Shown piece after piece: positions 1 to 10,363 of a DNA stretch of 40,266 nt (within the stretch, counting starts at the first letter, position 1; each line of letters starts with the position of its first letter). Position numbers and translations under genes: made by a program. Source of the DNA: Actinobacteria bacterium HGW-Actinobacteria-6 (GTDB lineage Bacteria; Actinomycetota; Coriobacteriia; Anaerosomatales; Anaerosomataceae); contig PHEU01000019.1 of NCBI GenBank assembly GCA_002841295.1, positions 1 to 40,266 on the forward strand, given 5' to 3'. The notes under the pieces were generated by a model. It did no database searches, had not been told where the DNA came from, and saw only the letters and a program-made list of their open reading frames with translations.

Positions 1-165
1 GTCCTGCACCTTGTGGCAAACCTCGGCGCAGAACCAGTACGTTGATGTGGCGGTAAACGCCACGACGACAAACGCGGCCAGCACCAAGACAGCAACGCCG
101 GTCCAGATGAGGTATCGAGGACGCCTTACCGGGTCTTTGAAACCGGCGAGAGATATCTTGGCCAT
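1..165 (-). CDS. NapC/NrfH-like membrane-anchored cytochrome c, N-terminal part (cut by window edge)
   Basis: Only the first 55 codons lie in the window; the rest is beyond base 1. The ATG at 165 follows an AAGGAG ribosome site about 11 bases upstream, and the gene begins 46 bases after the 15-haem cytochrome's stop. The protein has a basic N-terminus, one membrane helix at about residues 19-41, then STYWFCAEVCHKVQD, a haem-binding motif of the CX3CH form (C46, C50, H51) right after the helix. An N-terminal anchor followed at once by the first haem is the layout of NapC/NirT/NrfH quinol dehydrogenases. These take electrons from menaquinol and pass them to a partner cytochrome. The neighbouring multihaem cytochrome is the obvious partner. 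The family call is an inference from this short segment, and the number of haems is unknown. Confidence 0.75.
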   Translation of the reverse strand, partial: MAKISLAGFKDPVRRPRYLIWTGVAVLVLAAFVVVAFTATSTYWFCAEVCHKVQD

Positions 166-211
166 CAGGATCTTGACTCCTTCGTTGCTGGTCTCAGTAC
201 CCGTGTTCGTA

Positions 212-1672
212 CTAGTAGTCGATACCTACCCGCGGGTAACCGACCTTGCCGTGACACTGCAGGCACTGCCCGTCATAGGGCGACGAGTAGTTGCGAAGCA
301 GGAAGTTCTGGTCGCTACCGTGGGGATTGTGGCACGTCGAAGTGCACGTCAATGGCTCCTGTGCATTCACATCGAAATCCGTCGGATGCGTCGGGTGATT
401 GTTGCCCTTGGTGTCGTCGTAGTACTTCGGATTATGGCACTTCAAGCACACCTCGGGATTACGCTCCTGTAGTAAGGGCGCATAGTCGGATCCATGAGGG
501 GTGTGGCAGCGGATGCACAGGACCTCTTTATGCGCCGAGGCATCATACGACGTCTGGATCGCAACCCTGTGGCACTGATAGCACATCGCGTTGTCTTTTG
601 CCGAGAGCAGCGCAGGGTACATCGCGGCGTGTGGATCGTGGCAGTCGGCACAAGCCAGCTTGACCGTGCCGACCGGGTGATGACTCTTGCGCAGGAAATC
701 CTGGTTGATATCAGGATGGCAGTCGTAGCACAGCGCCGGCTGGTCCTTGCGAAGCAGCGGCAAGTAGTCCGAGCCATGCGGCTCATGACAACCCGTACAG
801 TTGTCGTACTCGAACGGACTGTGCTGCACAGGCAGGAGGCTCAGCGGAGCCACGCTCGGATGACACCTGAAGCAAAGATCCCGCTGACCGGCGACAAGGA
901 TGCCGCGATACTCAGACGCGTGCGGGTTATGGCAGTTGAGACAGAAGCGGCCTGCCACCGGCGCATGGACCTGCTTGCGCGCAAGCTCCGGACCGATGCG
1001 ATGGCAGGTGACACACAAGTCGCGCTCATCTTGCTTCAAGAGCACCCGGAAGTCCGACGCATGCGGGTCATGACAGTTCGTGCAGTAGCCGCTCTCAAAC
1101 GGAACGTGCGTGAACTCCATGTTCTTCATCGCGCCAAGACTGCCATGACACACCCAGCACAGCTCGGTCTCAGGAAGCACGAGGCTTGACTCCTCGCCCT
1201 TGACCCGGGCTTCGGTGACCTCAGTTGAGATGCTGCCTATGCTCGTGGTCTCTTCGCCTGAGTAGAAGACGTCGAGAACGAGCTTGAGCGGCAGCCATTC
1301 TACGAGTGTCTTGGTTCGCTCCCATGACTGCTTGGCCCCGGTGATAACGGACTTCTCAACGATCTTCCCGTGCGGCGTATGACAAGCGGTGCAGCCCTTG
1401 AGCATGAACGGGTTATGGACTGACGCCTTGGACATCGCGGGGATGAGCTCGCTGTGGCACTGAAGGCATTCGATGTTCCTGGTGATGCTCCGGATCTGAT
1501 CCGGCGAGCGGCTAACGAGCGTCTCGATAACCGTCGTGATGCTGCACAGGAGGAGCAGGAGGACGAGGATGACAGCAAACACGAGACGACCCCGCCGGTT
1601 CGATGAACCGTCGAGGGCAACCGAGTCGTTTATCTCCCCAACCGAGGTGTCCGGAATATCGGACCCGCTCAA
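212..1672 (-). CDS. Membrane-anchored 15-haem c-type cytochrome (paired CXXCH family)
   Basis: The protein is 486 aa if translation starts at the TTG at 1672, which sits 4 bases after AAGGAGG. A TTG at 1705 would add 11 residues but has no spaced ribosome site. A single membrane helix lies at about residues 30-53 and the rest should be outside the membrane. I count 14 CXXCH haem sites plus one CX3CH site (CTSTCH) near the C-terminus, so 15 predicted c-type haems. Many are followed by NPHAS/EPHGSD-type segments, typical of the doubled CXXCH repeat cytochromes. Two haems lie near the N-terminus, then a haem-free stretch of roughly 75 residues, then 13 closely spaced haems, suggesting an electron wire. 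It shares a direction with the NapC-like gene downstream. The likely role is passing electrons from a quinol dehydrogenase to an extracytoplasmic acceptor; the acceptor cannot be read from sequence. Confidence 0.93.
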   Translation of the reverse strand: MSGSDIPDTSVGEINDSVALDGSSNRRGRLVFAVILVLLLLLCSITTVIETLVSRSPDQIRSITRNIECLQCHSELIPAMSKASVHNPFMLKGCTACHTPHGKIVEKSVITGAKQSWERTKTLVEWLPLKLVLDVFYSGEETTSIGSISTEVTEARVKGEESSLVLPETELCWVCHGSLGAMKNMEFTHVPFESGYCTNCHDPHASDFRVLLKQDERDLCVTCHRIGPELARKQVHAPVAGRFCLNCHNPHASEYRGILVAGQRDLCFRCHPSVAPLSLLPVQHSPFEYDNCTGCHEPHGSDYLPLLRKDQPALCYDCHPDINQDFLRKSHHPVGTVKLACADCHDPHAAMYPALLSAKDNAMCYQCHRVAIQTSYDASAHKEVLCIRCHTPHGSDYAPLLQERNPEVCLKCHNPKYYDDTKGNNHPTHPTDFDVNAQEPLTCTSTCHNPHGSDQNFLLRNYSSPYDGQCLQCHGKVGYPRVGIDY

Positions 1673-1737
1673 GAGTCCTCCTTCTTGAAGCGATGTGCGG
1701 TGCAATCTCCCGCGGCCGCGCCAAATCGCTCAACCGA

Positions 1738-1765
1738 AGTCTACCATGCAGATGCAGACTGTTAA
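1738..1765 (-). promoter_or_regulatory. Candidate sigma70-type promoter for the 15-haem cytochrome
   Basis: Reading the minus strand, TTAACA (1765-1760; 5 of 6 matches to the -35 consensus) is followed after 16 bases by TAGACT (1743-1738; 4 of 6), with an extended -10 TG one base upstream. A second TTAACA lies just upstream, giving a short direct repeat in an unusually AT-rich patch. The start site would fall near 1731, about 60 bases before the TTG start at 1672. It lies in the 138-base gap after the NHL gene, the largest gap in this block, so the cytochrome genes may be transcribed independently of the glycan/rex operon. Confidence 0.5.
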
Positions 1766-1810
1766 ACGTGTTAAGAACTATTACTCAAGAGGAGGCTCTG
1801 CTGCCATCGC

Positions 1811-2896
1811 CTACGGACCGACCAGTCGCACGACTTGCAGTCGTCCATTCTCTTTGTCAGCTATCGCTAGGAATCCCCGAAGTACTGCAACGTCATTCGC
1901 AAAGTTGAGCTGCCCGGGCTCAACGCCCCGCACACCATACTTGGCGACAAGCTCCCCGTCCGCCGAGAGACGCACAAGCGAGAAACCGAACGCATCAGCG
2001 ACCACGATCGAACCGTCATCGAGCACCGTCAGCCCTCGAGGGAGTTCGATCTCACGCTCGGTGGTGTCATCAATGCCCGTTGGCGGCGTTCCGAAGTTCC
2101 ACTTGGGCTCGCCCTCGGCAGTGAATGCCGTCACACGAGCGTGGTTGGAATCCGAGACATAGATCGTGCCGTCGTCGCCGACTGCAATGCCGTTAGGATG
2201 ATCCAGACCGCCGGCAGCGATACCCGGCATGCCGAACTGACGAACAAATGTGCCATCCGTCTTGAACACGACGATCTGATAGGCATCGCACGCATAGACC
2301 AACCCATCGCCTACGGCGATGTCGGTCACGGCGATTCCGGTGCCGTCCTGACCCGACGAACCACGCCCGACCACCTTCAACGGATCCGGGAAGCGTCGGA
2401 GCGGCTTGCCGTTCGGGTCGTAGACTTCGATTGAGTCGTTCCTGAAACTCGCGACGTAGATGTTGCCATCCTCGTCAGCATCGATGCCGACGGGATAGTT
2501 GAGCGAGCCCGGCTTGTAGGTATTGACCGCTCCCGGCAGCGGCTTCGCCACACCAAAACCGCCAAACTCGAACAAGAAACGTCCGGAAGAATCGAACGCG
2601 CAGACTCTGTTGTTCTGCGTGTCGGTCACGTAGACGTGTCCCGAGTTGCCGACTGCAACGCCCATAGGCCGGTCGAACAGCGGAAGAGCACCTTCGCCGG
2701 GACCATCCACTGACCAGACCGGCTGTATTCCAGCTTGAACCGGGCTCTCGGTCAGCTGCTCGGGGCGACCAAGGAAATAGAGCAGGTAGATTATCAATCC
2801 GACAAGGAGAACCGCGAGGATCGCCGCAAGGACGCCAAACCACTGACGCGGCGTCAAGCGAATCCCGCGTTTCAGCGGCGCGAGAATTCTCGGCAT
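1811..2896 (-). CDS. Membrane-anchored NHL-repeat six-bladed beta-propeller protein
   Basis: The 361-aa protein has a short basic cytoplasmic end, one membrane helix at about residues 18-42, and then six repeats of the NHL type. The repeats carry phrases such as PMGVAVGNSGHVYVTDTQNN, YPVGIDADEDGNIYVAS and HPNGIAVGDDGTIYVSDSNH. Six blades make a closed propeller, displayed outside the membrane. NHL propellers mostly bind proteins, peptides or glycans, and no catalytic residues are evident. The ATG at 2896 follows AAGGAG by 4 bases. It begins one base after the stop of the TPR gene, so the two are translationally coupled. NHL proteins often accompany multihaem cytochrome genes, so a scaffold or assembly role in the electron-transfer block is an inference. 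Confidence 0.85.
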   Translation of the reverse strand: MPRILAPLKRGIRLTPRQWFGVLAAILAVLLVGLIIYLLYFLGRPEQLTESPVQAGIQPVWSVDGPGEGALPLFDRPMGVAVGNSGHVYVTDTQNNRVCAFDSSGRFLFEFGGFGVAKPLPGAVNTYKPGSLNYPVGIDADEDGNIYVASFRNDSIEVYDPNGKPLRRFPDPLKVVGRGSSGQDGTGIAVTDIAVGDGLVYACDAYQIVVFKTDGTFVRQFGMPGIAAGGLDHPNGIAVGDDGTIYVSDSNHARVTAFTAEGEPKWNFGTPPTGIDDTTEREIELPRGLTVLDDGSIVVADAFGFSLVRLSADGELVAKYGVRGVEPGQLNFANDVAVLRGFLAIADKENGRLQVVRLVGP

Positions 2897-2897
2897 G

Positions 2898-3635
2898 TTA
2901 CTCCTTCACACCGAGACGGCTCAGTGCTTCCTGAGCCTCGGCGAGATCGAATTTTGCAGCGGCCTTGTAGCGCTCGATGGCCGTATCCTTGTTGCCAAGC
3001 CGCTCGTTCGCCACTCCTGAGATGTACTGCAAGTCCGCCAAGTCGGCCCGAACCTCAAGCACCGGGTCCACGGCGACGAGGGCCGACTTGTAGTGTTTCT
3101 GCTGGATGTAGAGATCGCCAAGCGACTTTGCGGCAAGAGCGTGGTCCGGGGCGATCTTCAGGACCTCCCAGAAGGTCTTCTCGGCAGACTTGGCCTGTCC
3201 GATTTCAAGCTGGACAGCGCCCTTGTTGTAGAGCGCGGCGAGGTTCTCCGGATCGAGGCTGAGTACTTTGTCGTATTCCGCGATCGCTTGGTCGAACTGA
3301 CCGTCCTGCTGATATGCGTAGCCCAGATTCAGGTGGCTGTCGGCATCATCAGGGTTTGCTTTGGACGCGGATTCCATCTCGGTGACCGCAAGACCGGTCC
3401 TCGTGACCGTGGCGTCATTCGTAAGCACACCGCGAAGAACGTATCCGCCAAGTGCCGTCACCGCGAGCAAGAGCAGAAGCACGAGCAGCGCCAGCCATCC
3501 GGGAACGAGATCCTCCTCGCGAACAGCATGTGCGGACGACAGCGCAGGGGTGCCATCGTCCTCTTCCGTAAGCACAGGAAGTGCCTCGTCTACGTGCGGC
3601 AGTTCCTCATTATTCTCTTCGATGGCTCGTGTCAT
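2898..3635 (-). CDS. Single-pass membrane TPR-repeat protein
   Basis: The protein is 245 aa. The ATG at 3635 overlaps the rex stop in an ATGA, so the longer upstream reading is unlikely. The N-terminus is acidic (about residues 1-43), followed by one membrane helix at about 45-67. The remainder is tetratricopeptide repeats with typical signatures (HLNLGYAYQQDGQFDQAIAE, ALYNKGAVQLEIGQAKSA). TPR domains are protein-interaction scaffolds. After a single N-terminal helix the repeats should face outside. Its tight coupling with rex upstream and the NHL gene downstream suggests the TPR and NHL proteins work together, possibly in assembling or holding the cytochromes. No enzymatic function is indicated. 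Confidence 0.85.
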   Translation of the reverse strand: MTRAIEENNEELPHVDEALPVLTEEDDGTPALSSAHAVREEDLVPGWLALLVLLLLLAVTALGGYVLRGVLTNDATVTRTGLAVTEMESASKANPDDADSHLNLGYAYQQDGQFDQAIAEYDKVLSLDPENLAALYNKGAVQLEIGQAKSAEKTFWEVLKIAPDHALAAKSLGDLYIQQKHYKSALVAVDPVLEVRADLADLQYISGVANERLGNKDTAIERYKAAAKFDLAEAQEALSRLGVKE

Positions 3636-4273
3636 AGGTCGGTCTTTCCGCCTTGCGCCAGATGGAATGAAAGAATCTGAAGATCTGTAGACAAGCACAC
3701 TTGTCTGACGGCAACGCCCTCAGGAACGTTCAGGAGAACCGGAGCGAGGTTAAGTATAGCCTTGACTCCGCCGGACACAACCTTATCAGCGGCGCCCTGT
3801 GTGGCCGCGGCGGGCGTCGCGAGAATGACGATCTCAACGTCAAGCTCTCTCAAGACGCGCTCGATATCATCCATGCCGTGGACCATGAGCCCATCGGCCG
3901 ATGTGCCGATCTTGGAGCGATCATTGTCAAACACCGCAACGATCTCGAACCCGCGCTCACCAAAGCCACTGTAGCCAAGCAGTGCGCCACCAAGCTTGCC
4001 GAACCCGACAATAGCGGCACGGCGGCGCTCGACAATACCGAGAACACGCGAGATGTGCCCTATAAGCTCGCCGACGTCATAGCCGATTCCCCGCGTGCCG
4101 AGCTCCCCGAGATACGAGAAGTCCTTGCGGACCTGGGCGGCGTTCGTGCCGCACATCTCTGCGAGTGAGTTCGAGTTCACAAGCGGCATCTGGTTGGCTT
4201 GAGCCTGTAACAGACACCGCAAGTACGCGGGCAGTCGCTGGATAGTGGTCTGGGGTACCTGAGCGTTCTCCAC
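3632..4273 (-). CDS. rex: Redox-sensing transcriptional repressor Rex
   Basis: The 213-aa protein has the full length of the Rex family, with a GTG start at 4273, 16 bases after the ligase-family gene's stop. The N-terminal winged helix carries the family hallmark AAQVRKDFSYLGELGTRGIG (about residues 45-64). The C-terminal Rossmann domain has GFGKLGG (90-96) and an acidic residue in VFDND that fits NADH ribose binding. Rex dimers bind DNA when NAD+ is high and release it when NADH rises, switching on fermentation and anaerobic respiration genes. Its place between glycan genes and the cytochrome block suggests local redox control. I did not find a clear Rex operator (TTGTGAA...TTCACAA type) in the gaps of this window. 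Confidence 0.96.
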   Translation of the reverse strand: MENAQVPQTTIQRLPAYLRCLLQAQANQMPLVNSNSLAEMCGTNAAQVRKDFSYLGELGTRGIGYDVGELIGHISRVLGIVERRRAAIVGFGKLGGALLGYSGFGERGFEIVAVFDNDRSKIGTSADGLMVHGMDDIERVLRELDVEIVILATPAAATQGAADKVVSGGVKAILNLAPVLLNVPEGVAVRQVCLSTDLQILSFHLAQGGKTDL

Positions 4274-4289: not shown

Positions 4290-6410
4290 CTACTGTGCCG
4301 AACCGGCTGCGGCAAGACTGGCCTCAACCGAGTCCAATGACTGCTGAACATCAGAACGCCCCGGATCGAGGACAAGTGCTCGTTCGTAGGCTTTCTTCGC
4401 GTCCTCCAATCTACCTGCAAACCGATACGAATCTCCTAGAGACGCGATGGCCTCAAGGTAGTTCGGGTCCATCTCAACAGCGCGCTCGGAGACCTGAATG
4501 GCCTCGTCATATCGGCCGAGATTGGAGTACGCGAATGCAAGCTGCACGCGTATGGCGGGACCGAACGGTTCCACCTCGATGCCCTTCTTGGCGATTGCGA
4601 TAGCCTTGTCAACGTAGGTGATATCGAAGTAGTAGCCGCCCTGGTTGTACAGATTGGCCAAGAAGACGTAGTTGTCGTATTCGGTCGGCACGAAATCGAT
4701 CGCTTTGAGGAGTCCGTCTTCGGCGTTCTTGAAGTACTTGAGCGCCTGCTGCTGGGCTGCTGCATCCTGTGGTGAGCTCTGGCTGACTGTTGCGAGGAAC
4801 ATGTCCTGCCATGCGAGCCCAAGCTCCGAGCGATACATGTCGTTGTACGGGTTGTATTCGATTGCCTTCTCGACATCAGCCACGCGCTGCGTACCCGAGC
4901 CCAGCACGCGGCCCTTAAGGTAGTAGTTGTCCGCGACGATGTAGCGAACATTGGCAAAAGACAGGACCGCGCAAACGATGACGATCGCAGTGGCTGCATA
5001 CAGGCCCCATGATGGCGCCTTGACCTCGCGGACCGAGGCGCCGGGGGAAAGCAGAACTCCGATTGACAGCCACAGGAAGACGGTAGAGCCCGTCACCGAC
5101 AGCCCGAAGAACAAGTGCATGAGATAACCTACCGCCGCAGCCCAAAATGCTGCCAGGACAAGTCGCTCGGCACCCTTACCCCGGGCAAATGCCTGGGGTG
5201 CCGAAATGATCAGTCCCCAGATGAACAGCCCGTACAGCATGAACAGACCAGGTATGCCGAGGGCAGATGCAAGCTGCAGCGGATAGTTGTGGACGTTGTC
5301 CGCTACCGAAAGATAGCCAGCAGTCTGTGTGTACGCCTCAGGTTTGAACTTGGGGAAGATCAGCCGGAAGGTATCGGCACCCCAGCCGGTGATCGGTCGG
5401 GCTTTGATCGCGTTCCATGCAGCTTCCCAGATCTGAAATCGCGTGAGCGCACTACCGGCTCGAAAGTCGAAGATCGACGTGATGCGAGCAAGAACGTTGG
5501 TCACCTCGGACGGCGAGGTAAGACTCTTGACGGTCACAGCACCAAAGACTGCGGCAATCGCACCGGTGAAGCTCCAGTCGACGACCGTCAGCTTGGCCTT
5601 CGCCCAGATGAGCGCGAAGACGATGATCACGAGCGCGACTGCGCCGCCGATCCATGCACCGCGCACGAAGGCGACCAGCCAACAGAACGCGACCAGCAGG
5701 AATCCGCTCCAGTACGTGATGCGACCCCATAGCTTCTCGGAAGAGAGCGCCAGGCCGAGCGAGATGGCGAGTGGGAAGATCAGATACCCGCCGAGCAGAT
5801 CAGGGTTGCCGAACGTAGAAAACGCGCGGTTCGTCTCGAACGGCAGCGCGCCCCATGATGCCGGGTCAGCACCCGCGAACTGAAGCACACCGTAAAATGC
5901 GACGATCGCGCCACCCACGAGCAGCGTGCGGGCAAGCGACCGTATCCGAGACGGACGGTCTACGACCTGCAACGCCATGAAGAAGACGACCATGTAGTTG
6001 ACGAACGAGATCAGGCCCTCGAAACGACGGTACTTGCCGAAGATAGCCGTTGCCGGATGTATCGAGAGCGCCGAGGTCAGGACCAGCCAAGCCAGGAATG
6101 CGAGAATCAGCCACTCGACCTTCGTGGTGCGCACACGTCCACCCCTGGTGAGCAGCCCCCAGCTCCAGGCTCCCGCAGCGACCAACATGATCGCGCGCTG
6201 CAAGAAGATCTTCACGATATCGAACTGGTCGTATGTGAAGGGCAGACCCTTGCCGCCCCAGATGCTCGTGTTCGACATAGCGATCGGCACCATGAGCACA
6301 AGCAGATGTAAGCACACCCACACGATGCGATCGGTCGTGCTCATGGGCGCCCTCGTCGATACGGGCTGCGCCGCTGCGGGCTGCGACGCTCTCTTCTTCT
6401 TCTTGGCCAC
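4290..6410 (-). CDS. O-antigen ligase/polymerase-family (Wzy_C) membrane protein with C-terminal TPR domain
   Basis: The 706-aa protein starts at the GTG at 6410, with AGGAGG 4 bases upstream; that site overlaps the previous gene's stop. After a lysine-rich start there are about a dozen hydrophobic segments to roughly residue 480. Between them is the Wzy_C/WaaL signature region GWGADTFRLIFPKF...NVHNYPLQLASALGIPGL, with the conserved His in the periplasmic-type loop. The final ~200 residues are TPRs (LAFAYSNLGRYDEAIQVSER, LGDSYRFAGRLEDAKKAYER). This family moves lipid-linked glycans onto an acceptor or polymerises repeat units outside the membrane. In a cell without LPS the acceptor may be a surface-layer protein or another lipid glycan. 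The TPRs may select the acceptor. Whether it is a polymerase, ligase or protein oligosaccharyltransferase cannot be decided from sequence. Confidence 0.88.
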   Translation of the reverse strand: MAKKKKRASQPAAAQPVSTRAPMSTTDRIVWVCLHLLVLMVPIAMSNTSIWGGKGLPFTYDQFDIVKIFLQRAIMLVAAGAWSWGLLTRGGRVRTTKVEWLILAFLAWLVLTSALSIHPATAIFGKYRRFEGLISFVNYMVVFFMALQVVDRPSRIRSLARTLLVGGAIVAFYGVLQFAGADPASWGALPFETNRAFSTFGNPDLLGGYLIFPLAISLGLALSSEKLWGRITYWSGFLLVAFCWLVAFVRGAWIGGAVALVIIVFALIWAKAKLTVVDWSFTGAIAAVFGAVTVKSLTSPSEVTNVLARITSIFDFRAGSALTRFQIWEAAWNAIKARPITGWGADTFRLIFPKFKPEAYTQTAGYLSVADNVHNYPLQLASALGIPGLFMLYGLFIWGLIISAPQAFARGKGAERLVLAAFWAAAVGYLMHLFFGLSVTGSTVFLWLSIGVLLSPGASVREVKAPSWGLYAATAIVIVCAVLSFANVRYIVADNYYLKGRVLGSGTQRVADVEKAIEYNPYNDMYRSELGLAWQDMFLATVSQSSPQDAAAQQQALKYFKNAEDGLLKAIDFVPTEYDNYVFLANLYNQGGYYFDITYVDKAIAIAKKGIEVEPFGPAIRVQLAFAYSNLGRYDEAIQVSERAVEMDPNYLEAIASLGDSYRFAGRLEDAKKAYERALVLDPGRSDVQQSLDSVEASLAAAGSAQ

Positions 6411-6418
6411 GCGTCCTC

Positions 6419-7807
6419 CTATCGGGCTCCCCGTCCGGTCAGCACGACCCTGACCGTCTCAACGAGGATCTGTACATCCATGAGCAAGCTCTGATGATAC
6501 ATATAAATGAGGTCATACTTCAGTTTACGTTCAGGAGTCGTGGCGTACGTGCCGCTCACCTGAGCCAGGCCGGTCGCCCCGGGCTTGATTCGGAAACGCT
6601 CTCGATAGCCAGGGATGTCTCGCAGGTGCTGTTCGACAAAGAACTGCCGCTCCGGTCTCGGACCGACAAAACTCATATCGCCGCGGATGATATTGACGAG
6701 CTGCGGCAACTCGTCGACGCGATAATGGCGAAGGAATCGCCCGAGAGGCGTGATGCGTGGATCGTCTTGCTCGGCAAGAACAGGTCCCGATAGCGCCTCG
6801 GCATCTTTAACCATCGTGCGGAACTTCAGGACGTGGAACTCGCGAAGACCTTTGCCGACACGCTCCTGCGTGAAGACGATCGGCCAGCCCATCGTGAGCA
6901 AGATCGCCGCCGAGGAAAGCACGAACACCGGCGACAGGATGACAACGAATGCGAGCCCCGCGCACATGTCTATCGCGCGCTTGAGAACGATGAACCACCC
7001 GGGCGTTGCGGTGTGGGTGATCTGCATGAGCGGAATATCGCTGACGGTGCTGTCCACGGTGCCGATGAAGATCTCGTACAGGTCAGGGATGACCTCCACG
7101 CGAACCTCAGCCTCATCCGAGAGCGCAAGCTCTTCAACCACCTCGCGAAGCGCCGCAGGCGACGCGATGATCACGCGGTCGATATGCCGGGTCGCCACGA
7201 TTCGAGCCGCGTCTGTGATGCCTCCAAGCACCGGATGCACGGCCTCGACGTCGGCAGGCAGCGCCGGATCGCCCTCTCTGCGCAGAAAGCCGACGACCCG
7301 ATAGCCCCAGTACGAACGGCGAGTGAACTCGGATGCGAGCTCGATCGCTAGATCGCTGGTTCCTACGATGAGTACGTGCTGATCGGGCCACCGGATCGGC
7401 GTGACGCGCAGCACAGCCAAACGCCAGCCCACCAAAACGATCAGTTGAAAGGCCCATGCGATGACGATAACAAGGCGGCTGAAGGAGAAGAACTCCGGGC
7501 CGAGGAAGAATGCGGCGGCCGTGGTGAGAAGGATGCCGAGCGTCGCCGACCGGAACACTGCTTGTGTGAGCGCCCATGAGCCCTCGGTTCGCTCCGGCTC
7601 GTAGAGGCCATAGATGTACCCTGCGCCGAGATACACGATCGTGATGAGCGGCCAGAGCGCGGTGTATGCGCTGTAGTTGAATGCTGGTAGCGTGCCCTGA
7701 TGATCGATGACGATGAACTTCAGGAAGAACGCGCCGACGAAGCATGCGTTCACAACGAGCGCGTCGAAGAGCACTGATAGCGTTATGAACCGTCCTCGGG
7801 ACATCAT
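6419..7807 (-). CDS. Polyprenyl-phosphate sugar-1-phosphate transferase (WbaP/WcaJ-type initiating enzyme)
   Basis: The 462-aa protein has the usual three-part layout: four to five N-terminal membrane helices (to about 135), a Rossmann-like middle domain (VLIVGTSDLAIELASEF) and a C-terminal bacterial sugar transferase domain. The last shows KRAIDMCAGLAFVVILSPVF, FTQERVGKGLREFHVLKFRT, RVDELPQLVNIIRGDMSFVG and GPRPERQ. The Asp-Glu pair in RVDELPQ matches the catalytic dyad of this superfamily. It moves a hexose-1-phosphate from a UDP-sugar to undecaprenyl phosphate at the inner membrane face and so starts the glycan. Substrate (glucose, galactose or another sugar) is not readable, but galU in the window makes UDP-glucose plausible. 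Its ATG overlaps the upstream GT4 stop as ATGA. Confidence 0.95.
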   Translation of the reverse strand: MMSRGRFITLSVLFDALVVNACFVGAFFLKFIVIDHQGTLPAFNYSAYTALWPLITIVYLGAGYIYGLYEPERTEGSWALTQAVFRSATLGILLTTAAAFFLGPEFFSFSRLVIVIAWAFQLIVLVGWRLAVLRVTPIRWPDQHVLIVGTSDLAIELASEFTRRSYWGYRVVGFLRREGDPALPADVEAVHPVLGGITDAARIVATRHIDRVIIASPAALREVVEELALSDEAEVRVEVIPDLYEIFIGTVDSTVSDIPLMQITHTATPGWFIVLKRAIDMCAGLAFVVILSPVFVLSSAAILLTMGWPIVFTQERVGKGLREFHVLKFRTMVKDAEALSGPVLAEQDDPRITPLGRFLRHYRVDELPQLVNIIRGDMSFVGPRPERQFFVEQHLRDIPGYRERFRIKPGATGLAQVSGTYATTPERKLKYDLIYMYHQSLLMDVQILVETVRVVLTGRGAR

Positions 7808-8961
7808 GCGACTCCTCGTGCCTCGGCATAGACCGCGATCGTATCATCCACCATACGCGGAATCGTGAACTGCGAGTGCGCACGCTCACGCGCCTGTCTG
7901 CCGAGACGCTCCCGCAGCGCTGCGTCATCCACAAGCGTGCGCAGCGCTACTGCAAGCGCCGGCACGTCGGCGGGCGGCACGGTGAGCCCCGTGACGCCAT
8001 CGGGGTTCACATACGGAACACCCGTTGTGAGCCGCGTCGATACAACCGGCGTGCCTGCAGCGTGAGCTTCAAGCTGCACGAGGCCGAACGCCTCGGAACG
8101 CGCAACGCTCGGCAGGCAGAAGACGTCGGCGGCGTGATACCACGCCACAAGGTCGTCGAAGCCGAGCGGCTCGGCGAACGTGATTCGATCAGCGATGCCG
8201 AGAGACGCCGCGAGGGCCTCGAGCTCAGCACGCAGTGGACCCTTCCCCACCAGCACCAGGTCAGCATCAACGCTGGCCATGGCCCGGACGAGAACATCGA
8301 CGCCCTTGTAGTAGATCAGACGACCGACAAAGAGAACGACCGGGCGTGCGTGCGACGCCTTGAGTTGCGCGGCGCGCTCCAAGATGGCGGGTGTCTCGGC
8401 AAAGGCATCGACGTCGATACCGAACGGAACGACGCGGCACTTCTCGGCAATGGGCGCGAGGAAGGGACTGTGCTCGACCATGTCGGGACTTGAGGCGATC
8501 ACAAGATCGACGCGATCAAGGACCCGGCGCAAAAACGGCGCGTAGCCCTTGAGCATGAGGCGCTGACGGACGATGTCGCTGTGGTAAGTGAGCACGGACG
8601 GCAGACCAGGCTTGGCCCGGAGCCACTCGAGCTCGCCCCACGGGTACGGCGAGTGAAGGTGCAAGATGTCGGCGGGCTCGGGGCGTGTTGCCTCGGCTCG
8701 CAGTGCGCGGCCCATCCCGAATGCCACAGGAGCCGAGGAGATTGCGCACGAGCGGCCGAGCCGGGTAACCTCGACGCCGCTCATCGTCTCTGTGACCATG
8801 CGCGGTCCCTCGTTGGCGACGATCGCCCGGACACCGTGACCACGGGCAGCGAGTGCGGTCGCAAGGTCGCGAACGTGATACTCGATGCCACCGAGATGCG
8901 GAGGGTAATGCTTGTTCACCATCGTCACGCGCATGCGAGCGGCCGCCTCCGGGGTTGGCAC
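7804..8961 (-). CDS. Glycosyltransferase family 4
   Basis: The 385-aa protein has the GT-B fold plan of family 4. The N-terminal acceptor domain opens with VTMVNKHYPPHLGGIEYHVR. The C-terminal donor domain has PVVLFVGRLIYYKGVDVLV and the EX7E nucleotide-sugar motif in SEAFGLVQLEAHAAGTPVVS. GT4 enzymes are retaining transferases using nucleotide sugars such as GDP-mannose or UDP-glucose. The GTG at 8961 lies 4 bases after the phosphohexomutase stop. An internal ATG at 8934, preceded by GGAGG at 11 bases, is an alternative start. It overlaps the initiating transferase, so it may add an early sugar of the same lipid-linked unit. Donor and linkage are unknown. Confidence 0.92.
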   Translation of the reverse strand: MPTPEAAARMRVTMVNKHYPPHLGGIEYHVRDLATALAARGHGVRAIVANEGPRMVTETMSGVEVTRLGRSCAISSAPVAFGMGRALRAEATRPEPADILHLHSPYPWGELEWLRAKPGLPSVLTYHSDIVRQRLMLKGYAPFLRRVLDRVDLVIASSPDMVEHSPFLAPIAEKCRVVPFGIDVDAFAETPAILERAAQLKASHARPVVLFVGRLIYYKGVDVLVRAMASVDADLVLVGKGPLRAELEALAASLGIADRITFAEPLGFDDLVAWYHAADVFCLPSVARSEAFGLVQLEAHAAGTPVVSTRLTTGVPYVNPDGVTGLTVPPADVPALAVALRTLVDDAALRERLGRQARERAHSQFTIPRMVDDTIAVYAEARGVA

Positions 8962-8965
8962 GTAA

Positions 8966-10363
8966 TCAGACGCCCGTCGCGAGCGTACGACCCTCGGCTA
9001 GCAAATCATCGACCACGCCTGCCGAGGAGGCCTCGGCGTAGATGCGAACGAGCGGCTCCGTGCCCGAAGTGCGCAGCAGGAGCCACGCGTCGTCCGGAAG
9101 CAGGAACTTGATGCCGTCGGTGCGGATGACCTCGCGGACCTCGAGGCCCGCGAGTGTCGTCGGTGCGAGCGTTGGCATGCTGGCAACGAACGCGGCCACG
9201 GTAGCGGCGTCGAGCTTGAGGTCGACCCGGCTGTATTCCATGGGGCCGGTGACGGCAAGCAGGTCATCGACGAGCTCAGCCAGACCCTGGCCGCGCTGGC
9301 CCATCATCTCGGCGAGCAGCAGCGCCATGAGTAGGCCGTCGCGCTCCCGCACGTGCGCAGGAATACCGATACCACCAGACTCTTCTCCGCCGAGCAGAAC
9401 GCCGCCTTTGACCATCTCTTCGTAGATCCACTTGAAGCCGACCGGCGTGGTCGTGACCTCAAGGCCGAGATGCGCGGCCAGGCGGTCGACGAGAACGCTC
9501 GTGGAGAGCGTCTTCACAATGCGTCCGGTCATCCCGCGGTCCTCGACCAGGTGACGGGCGACGAGCGCGATGATGCGATGCGGGTTCACGAAGGTACCGT
9601 TGCCATCGGCCGCACCGATACGGTCGGCATCGCCGTCCGTGATGAACGCGGCGTCGAGCGCCTCGCGTCTCACGAGCTCGCTGACTTCGTTGATGTGCGG
9701 CGGGATGGGCTCGGGATGCAATCCGCCGAAGCTCGGGTTGGCCTCACCATGGATCTCGGTGACGGTCACGCCGAAGGAGCGGAGCGTCTCGGCAAGGTAA
9801 CCCTGGCCAGCGCCGTAGAGCGGATCGACGGCCACATGCAGGCCGGAGGCGCCGATCGCGTCGGCGTCGACGAAGCTGCGGAGTGCGGTGAGATACGGGC
9901 CGACGAGGTCGACGACCTCGTACTCGCCGCGGGCGGTCGGCTCCTCGGGCAGCAGTGCGGCTTCGACGCGCTTGGTGAACGAGACGGGGCTCGCGCCACC
10001 GTCTTGCATCCGGAGCTTGAAGCCGAGGTACGGCGCCGGGTTGTGGCTTGCGGTGAGCATGACGCCACCTACAGCATCTTCATCACGCGCGACTGACAGG
10101 CAGAGTGCGGGCGTGGGCAGATAGCGGTCCGAGATCTTCACGCGCAGGCCATGCGAGGCGATGACCTCGGCTGCGGCGGCGGCGAAGCTTCCAGCCTCGA
10201 AGCGGGTGTCGTAGCCGATGACGATCAGGCCACCGGGGCTGTCCTCGGCGAACACGCGAGCGGCTGCGTCGGCAACGCGACGGAGGTTCGCGTAGGTGAA
10301 ATCATCGCCGATGACGGCGCGCCAGCCGTCAGTACCAAAGTGGATTTCGGTTGTGGAGGCCAT
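8966..10363 (-). CDS. Phosphoglucomutase/phosphomannomutase
   Basis: The 465-aa protein carries all four alpha-D-phosphohexomutase signatures. These are the phosphoserine loop LTASHNPAPYLGFK (Ser106), the metal loop TDGDADRIG (Asp243, 245, 247), the sugar loop GGEESGGIG (about 325-333) and the phosphate loop RTSGTEPLVRIYAE near the C-terminus. It interconverts hexose 6-phosphate and 1-phosphate, supplying glucose-1-phosphate for GalU and RfbF and/or mannose-1-phosphate for ManC, all encoded in this window. The length and motifs do not separate glucose from mannose preference, and it may serve both. The ATG at 10363 has AAGGAG about 9 bases upstream. A 96-base gap separates it from the preceding gene, where I see a CGACTAGTCG palindrome (10409-10418) but no convincing promoter. 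Confidence 0.94.
   Translation of the reverse strand: MASTTEIHFGTDGWRAVIGDDFTYANLRRVADAAARVFAEDSPGGLIVIGYDTRFEAGSFAAAAAEVIASHGLRVKISDRYLPTPALCLSVARDEDAVGGVMLTASHNPAPYLGFKLRMQDGGASPVSFTKRVEAALLPEEPTARGEYEVVDLVGPYLTALRSFVDADAIGASGLHVAVDPLYGAGQGYLAETLRSFGVTVTEIHGEANPSFGGLHPEPIPPHINEVSELVRREALDAAFITDGDADRIGAADGNGTFVNPHRIIALVARHLVEDRGMTGRIVKTLSTSVLVDRLAAHLGLEVTTTPVGFKWIYEEMVKGGVLLGGEESGGIGIPAHVRERDGLLMALLLAEMMGQRGQGLAELVDDLLAVTGPMEYSRVDLKLDAATVAAFVASMPTLAPTTLAGLEVREVIRTDGIKFLLPDDAWLLLRTSGTEPLVRIYAEASSAGVVDDLLAEGRTLATGV

Follow-up and report, generated by a model that had tools for sequence, protein, structure and literature searches.

The 40,266-nucleotide (nt) contig PHEU01000019.1 of Actinobacteria bacterium HGW-Actinobacteria-6 probably carries at its left end the 5' portion of an Anaerosomatales (OPB41) operon for extracellular electron transfer, whose products would form a conduit from quinol to the cell surface. 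The window is this whole stretch; it is the complete contig C58 of a genome of 69 contigs (2.35 Mb, about 95% complete). The family Anaerosomataceae, the order Anaerosomatales and the class Coriobacteriia are the frame for all counts in relatives. An earlier note on the window had described five consecutive genes, for a NapC/NrfH-like anchor, a 15-haem membrane cytochrome, an NHL propeller, a TPR protein and Rex, as a quinol-to-outside conduit in a monoderm cell under redox control. All five are present in that order on the minus strand. Electron passage through the thick Gram-positive wall is poorly known, and the locus offers a candidate path from quinol to the surface that can be followed gene by gene across the order.

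The argument begins with the 15-haem cytochrome, whose motif count and N-terminal membrane helix were as the note had described. All 15 haem motifs (14 CXXCH and one CXXXCH) are invariant in 33 of 33 aligned homologues, and so are 14 further histidines, which would suffice for bis-histidine ligation of 14 haems. The likely start is the TTG at 1672, behind AAGGAGG, and not the codon at 1705. In profile comparison residues 260-416 (157 residues) match PDB 6r2q chain A with E 4e-17; we take this chain to be MtrA of the MtrCAB complex, the structure file carrying another name. With the MtrA/DmsE decahaem cytochromes of Shewanella the protein shares this match over seven haems and the paired CXXCH rhythm, while it differs from them by five more haems, the membrane helix and the Gram-positive lineage. 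It reaches 177 bits with the DmsE decahaem family TIGR03508, below the cut-off of 192.2, and has 15 haems against ten, so it is MtrA-like without being a member of the family. No porin partner was noticed beside the gene, in scans that did not include porin models of the MtrB type. A separate observation concerns the cysteine at window 1544-1546 (residue 54 when counted from 1705), where the membrane helix ends: this residue lies outside any haem motif, mostly without a normal lipobox, and is conserved in 94% of homologues.

What, then, is the anchor? The 55 codons in the window, with CX3CH (CAEVCH) as the sole haem motif, are too short to match any family alone in Pfam and NCBIfam scans, so the identity was taken from full-length proteins of relatives. 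One of these (L047:10378-11592) is 89% identical to the fragment over the shared part, and the protein encoded next after the 15-haem gene, in about half of the relatives' loci, has about 400 residues and 11-12 haem sites. Residues 24-165 of the L047 homologue match the NrfH profile end to end (5-138 of 138), at 40.4 bits against a cut-off of 134.2; the TorC family gives 22 bits against a cut-off of 478. The NapC/NirT N-terminal domain with its one membrane helix was recognised through homologues, 6 of 12 of which match PF03264. A profile search finds NrfH (2j7a chain C, E 7e-5). K89, invariant in the 12-haem family, falls opposite the lysine in 'PFKAIAGARD' of NrfH, a residue that lines the quinol pocket. 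A simple four-haem NrfH-like anchor was rejected because 16 of 16 aligned full-length homologues carry 11-12 haem sites. Thus the comparison with NapC/NrfH quinol dehydrogenases (2j7a chain C) has two sides. The N-terminal helix, the end-to-end profile match and the aligned lysine are shared, whereas 12 haems, a first motif of the CX3CH type and a score of 40 against 134 set the protein apart from the small four- or five-haem proteins above the NapC/NrfH cut-off. The earlier description as NapC/NrfH-like therefore holds for the N-terminus, as seen in relatives, and not for the full protein. To judge by these alignments, the 12-haem protein probably works like a NapC/NrfH quinol dehydrogenase, without being one by haem number or score.

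Is the arrangement kept in other genomes? The note had proposed to look for a conserved gene order in other Coriobacteriia, and such an order exists inside one order of the class. A 15-haem homologue was found in 48 of 61 relatives; at E 1e-80, 296 genomes of the class gave 48 matches, all within that order. Genes in relatives' loci were called by a conservation-weighted procedure and by tblastn, and gene order was counted in the 29 genomes with more than 4.5 kb upstream of the 15-haem gene. The order Wzy, Rex, TPR, NHL, 15-haem is kept in 22 of them, and in 18 of 20 within the family. The most constant upstream partners are Wzy and TPR, each present in 28 of 29 loci, followed by NHL (25/29) and the less constant Rex (23/29); in genome G012, for example, the 15-haem gene is kept while rex is missing at the locus.

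Downstream of the 15-haem gene the loci are more variable. Inserts include a 7-haem gene, ResB/CcsA biogenesis genes (in many loci), a second NHL gene, and often a giant cytochrome with 18, 19, 33 or 38 haems. The giant cytochromes give MtrC/MtrF-type domain matches, and the 33-haem one ends in carboxypeptidase-regulatory-like and discoidin-type domains; in genome G016 a 33-haem gene stands where others have the 12-haem gene. Examples with 38 and 33 CXXCH motifs lie at L058:3575-8974, L043:4699-8754 and L044:4920-9032. In many genomes a Rex-like gene and a UbiE-type menaquinone methyltransferase gene follow. The note had seen no terminal reductase among the visible genes, and no classic reductase was found in the relatives' flanks scanned. 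An MtrA homologue, a quinol-oxidising multihaem protein, cytochrome-c biogenesis proteins and Rex occur together in one locus in relatives (L080, L056, L040), and the same make-up in the present genome is split over contigs C58 and C8. Contig C8 ends inside a giant cytochrome (6 haem motifs in the fragment), after which come ResB-like, CcsA, Rex-like, B12 radical SAM, UbiE and amidohydrolase genes. Joined to C58 by synteny only, it is probably the other side of the contig break. In relatives the radical SAM protein is B12-binding (TIGR04190, above cut-off) and adjoins UbiE downstream of the cytochrome locus (L047:13858-15768 and orthologues; L103); it could be an unrecognised quinone-modifying enzyme.

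The genome also holds menaquinone genes. MqnE (513 bits, cut-off 435), MqnC (481 bits, cut-off 428) and an MqnA-family gene lie side by side, UbiA-type genes are present, and a UbiE-type gene lies on C8 behind the presumed continuation of the locus. These futalosine-pathway, UbiA-type and UbiE-type genes together make a menaquinone pool likely in this species.

We infer from these data the following scheme, including its direction, its acceptor and the contacts between its partners. Menaquinol would give up its electrons to the 12-haem protein at the NapC/NrfH-like N-terminus. From there the electrons would travel through the remaining haems of this protein and through the 15-haem MtrA-like wire, with both proteins tethered to the cytoplasmic membrane and extending into the cell wall. 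The electrons would leave the cell through giant 18-38-haem cytochromes, encoded just downstream in relatives, for mineral respiration. The ResB/CcsA-type genes of the locus may assist haem attachment. The NHL and TPR proteins are probable envelope scaffolds, and the products of the Wzy-type glycan genes probably synthesise a surface polymer by which the cytochromes are held or modified. The conduit proposed in the note is thus favoured by the conserved synteny, the NapC/NrfH-like N-terminus, the MtrA-like sequence, the giant cytochromes downstream and the menaquinone genes, and by the comparable cluster published for a relative that reduces Fe(III).

Several points weigh against this scheme. 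Neither published isolate gave detectable respiratory quinones, and multihaem proteins are about as numerous in the related isolate that is not an Fe(III) reducer (PMC9686372). Only 14 of 27 testable loci have the 12-haem gene immediately after the 15-haem gene. AlphaFold2 gave models of low confidence for both proteins (mean pLDDT 32 for the 15-haem and 37 for the 12-haem protein). Could the cytochromes instead feed a reductase for a soluble acceptor (sulfur, thiosulfate, nitrite or other) encoded elsewhere, so that the route ends in the wall and not at a mineral? The isolate just mentioned respires sulfur and thiosulfate but not Fe(III), which speaks for such a route. However, the scanned flanks hold no classic reductase beside the cluster, and the giant cytochromes with their MtrC/MtrF-type matches occupy them instead; we consider this alternative unlikely.

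Multihaem conduits can run in both directions, and the same wire working inwards would feed the quinone pool with electrons drawn from minerals, metal or partner cells. In favour of this, NHL proteins occur together with cytochromes in systems for iron oxidation or electron uptake, for example Uet (PMC10734462), and in Geoalkalibacter, which corrodes steel (PMC12016550). But the cultured relatives are described as H2- and formate-oxidising reducers of Fe(III) or sulfur compounds (PMC9686372), and inward flow is very unlikely. That the genes are mere neighbours with unrelated housekeeping functions is hardly credible. Slow rearrangement within one family can give high neighbour conservation, but the grouping of Wzy, TPR and the 15-haem gene persists through several families of the order, where protein identity is about 45-60%, and it is in this same stretch that relatives carry the additional cytochrome and biogenesis genes. 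An outward conduit from quinol to the surface remains the probable function.

Redox control by Rex is a different matter. The identity of Rex is secure, with a full-length curated model passed at 261.5 bits against 226, but the claim that this Rex controls the cluster found no support. The window was searched for operators at two spacings, the homologous loci and the whole genome at the standard one. In the window no site stands clearly above chance with the standard consensus, which may not be that of this lineage. The 597 kb of homologous loci hold 2 weak sites against 0-1 expected, neither of them before genes of this operon. Elsewhere in the same genome there are four sites, against one for a reversed control. 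Because no operator was found at the cluster, and because rex is less constant than Wzy and TPR and missing from the locus in several genomes, direct control by this Rex is possible but unsupported. There is about an even chance that Rex is carried along in a long operon of glycan and cytochrome genes without regulating it, the cytochromes being constitutive or under another regulator. The operator counts, including the four sites elsewhere, and the lower constancy of rex, found upstream in 23 of 29 loci where TPR and Wzy each reach 28, favour this view. Against it stand the tight coupling of rex to the TPR gene by a 4-nt overlap, a second, Rex-like gene that many loci carry towards their 3' end, and the possibly different consensus of the lineage. 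That second gene (L047:13173-13880 and orthologues) scores below the Rex cut-offs. One-mismatch operator-like palindromes at L104 1501 and L105 1501, elsewhere in the genome, may be true Rex targets.

Where does the operon begin? The operon-like run starts at the phosphoglucomutase/phosphomannomutase-like gene and not at rex (Table 1). Seven genes, from this gene through the glycosyltransferase, the sugar transferase, Wzy, rex and TPR to NHL, are close-packed with gaps of -4 to +16 nt, and 138 nt then separate the NHL gene from the cytochrome gene. The role of these upstream glycan genes was overlooked by the earlier note. Its statement that four of the proteins have one N-terminal helix agrees with the present data: hydropathy gives one hydrophobic helix each in TPR, NHL and the 15-haem cytochrome and none in Rex, and the helix of the anchor fragment was judged by eye.

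Table 1. Genes and one intergenic gap at the left end of the window, with positions in the window.
Feature	Position	Strand	Remarks
Anchor fragment	1..165	-	First 55 codons of membrane-anchored 12-haem cytochrome, NapC/NrfH-like N-terminus; cut by contig end
15-haem cytochrome	212..1672	-	One N-terminal membrane helix; 14 CXXCH and 1 CXXXCH; C-terminal part MtrA/DmsE-like
Intergenic gap NHL/cytochrome	1673..1810	-	138 nt; possible separate promoter; no Rex operator recognised
NHL-repeat propeller protein	1811..2896	-	PF01436, E 2.5e-27; one N-terminal membrane helix
TPR protein	2898..3635	-	Pfam TPR match; one N-terminal membrane helix; start overlaps rex stop by 4 nt
Rex redox-sensing repressor	3632..4273	-	NCBIfam NF003992, 261.5 bits, cut-off 226
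Wzy/O-antigen-ligase-type membrane protein	4290..6410	-	PF04932; C-terminal TPRs
Bacterial sugar transferase (polyprenyl-phosphate sugar-1-phosphate transferase type)	6419..7807	-	Orthologue L047:2723-4093, PF02397 E 1.5e-60; 73% identical
Group 1 glycosyltransferase	7804..8961	-	Orthologue L047:1590-2723, PF00534
Phosphoglucomutase/phosphomannomutase-like protein	8966..10363	-	Named by eye from sequence; first gene of the close-packed run

The left end of the window is an assembly break at a repeat inside the anchor gene. The window's first 99 nt also open contig C6 (L002 1-99), without a mismatch; C6 holds the beginning of a paralogue, close to a gene for a chemotaxis receptor, and paralogues of this type have 24 haem motifs as read in relatives. 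No piece matching the missing left part of the anchor gene is present among the contigs of the genome; what lies at the start of contig C4 is the end of the 24-haem paralogue and not that part. In genome G004 two paralogue copies likewise share exactly 99 nt at two contig ends (L082, L084), and the exact length looks like an assembler word length. The longest stretch shared between the copies is 19 nt in G014 and 14 nt in G003. Identity over at least 99 nt in two genomes of the genus, against these short stretches, points to local homogenisation of the two paralogues in some species. This suggests recent gene conversion between the 12-haem and 24-haem genes, which would break assemblies at the same gene. 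In several genomes the 24-haem paralogue adjoins a methyl-accepting chemotaxis protein gene (L100 1-2141; L091; L093). This proximity may mean that electron export and sensing are connected, although the family's isolates are reported to lack motility.

How does the locus compare with known systems? The nearest is that of Parvivirga hydrogeniphila Es71-Z0120, an obligate Fe(III) reducer with a Gram-positive wall (Khomyakova et al. 2022, PMC9686372). Its cluster MCL4079323-32 comprises an MtrA homologue, a quinol-oxidising multihaem protein, biogenesis proteins and Rex. The order appears to be the same as that of the window, and the multihaem proteins were proposed for Fe(III) reduction. The window operon is thus largely of a published kind. 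The available part of that account mentions neither NHL, TPR or Wzy genes nor order-wide conservation. The new elements are the map of the locus across the order, the recognition of the anchor as a 12-haem protein, the steady partnership with Wzy and TPR, and the doubt over control by Rex. The constant association with genes for surface glycans is less expected than the rest, and cultured relatives exist in which the route can be tested.

Why should glycan genes accompany cytochromes? Tentatively, a surface polymer made or attached by the Wzy-type ligase and the TPR protein may position the cytochromes through the monoderm wall or glycosylate them, and the discoidin-like C-terminus of the 33-haem cytochrome might bind such a polymer in some members. 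We regard this as possible but rather doubtful; a precedent for a glycan link is that genes for extracellular sugar synthesis and export are important for the growth of Geobacter on electrodes (PMC5585712). Carboxydothermus ferrireducens (PMC7829351) is likewise monoderm, with several multihaem proteins proposed as quinol oxidases and as surface or secreted cytochromes, but its genes for cytochromes lie dispersed or are linked to pilus genes, whereas those of the window follow one operon-like order with Wzy, TPR and NHL. The Uet, Desulfovibrio ferrophilus and Geoalkalibacter loci (PMC10734462, PMC9769857, PMC12016550) also encode NHL-repeat proteins with multihaem cytochromes. Unlike the present locus, they belong to diderm hosts with porins or outer-membrane cytochromes, and the available parts of these papers mention neither Rex nor Wzy.

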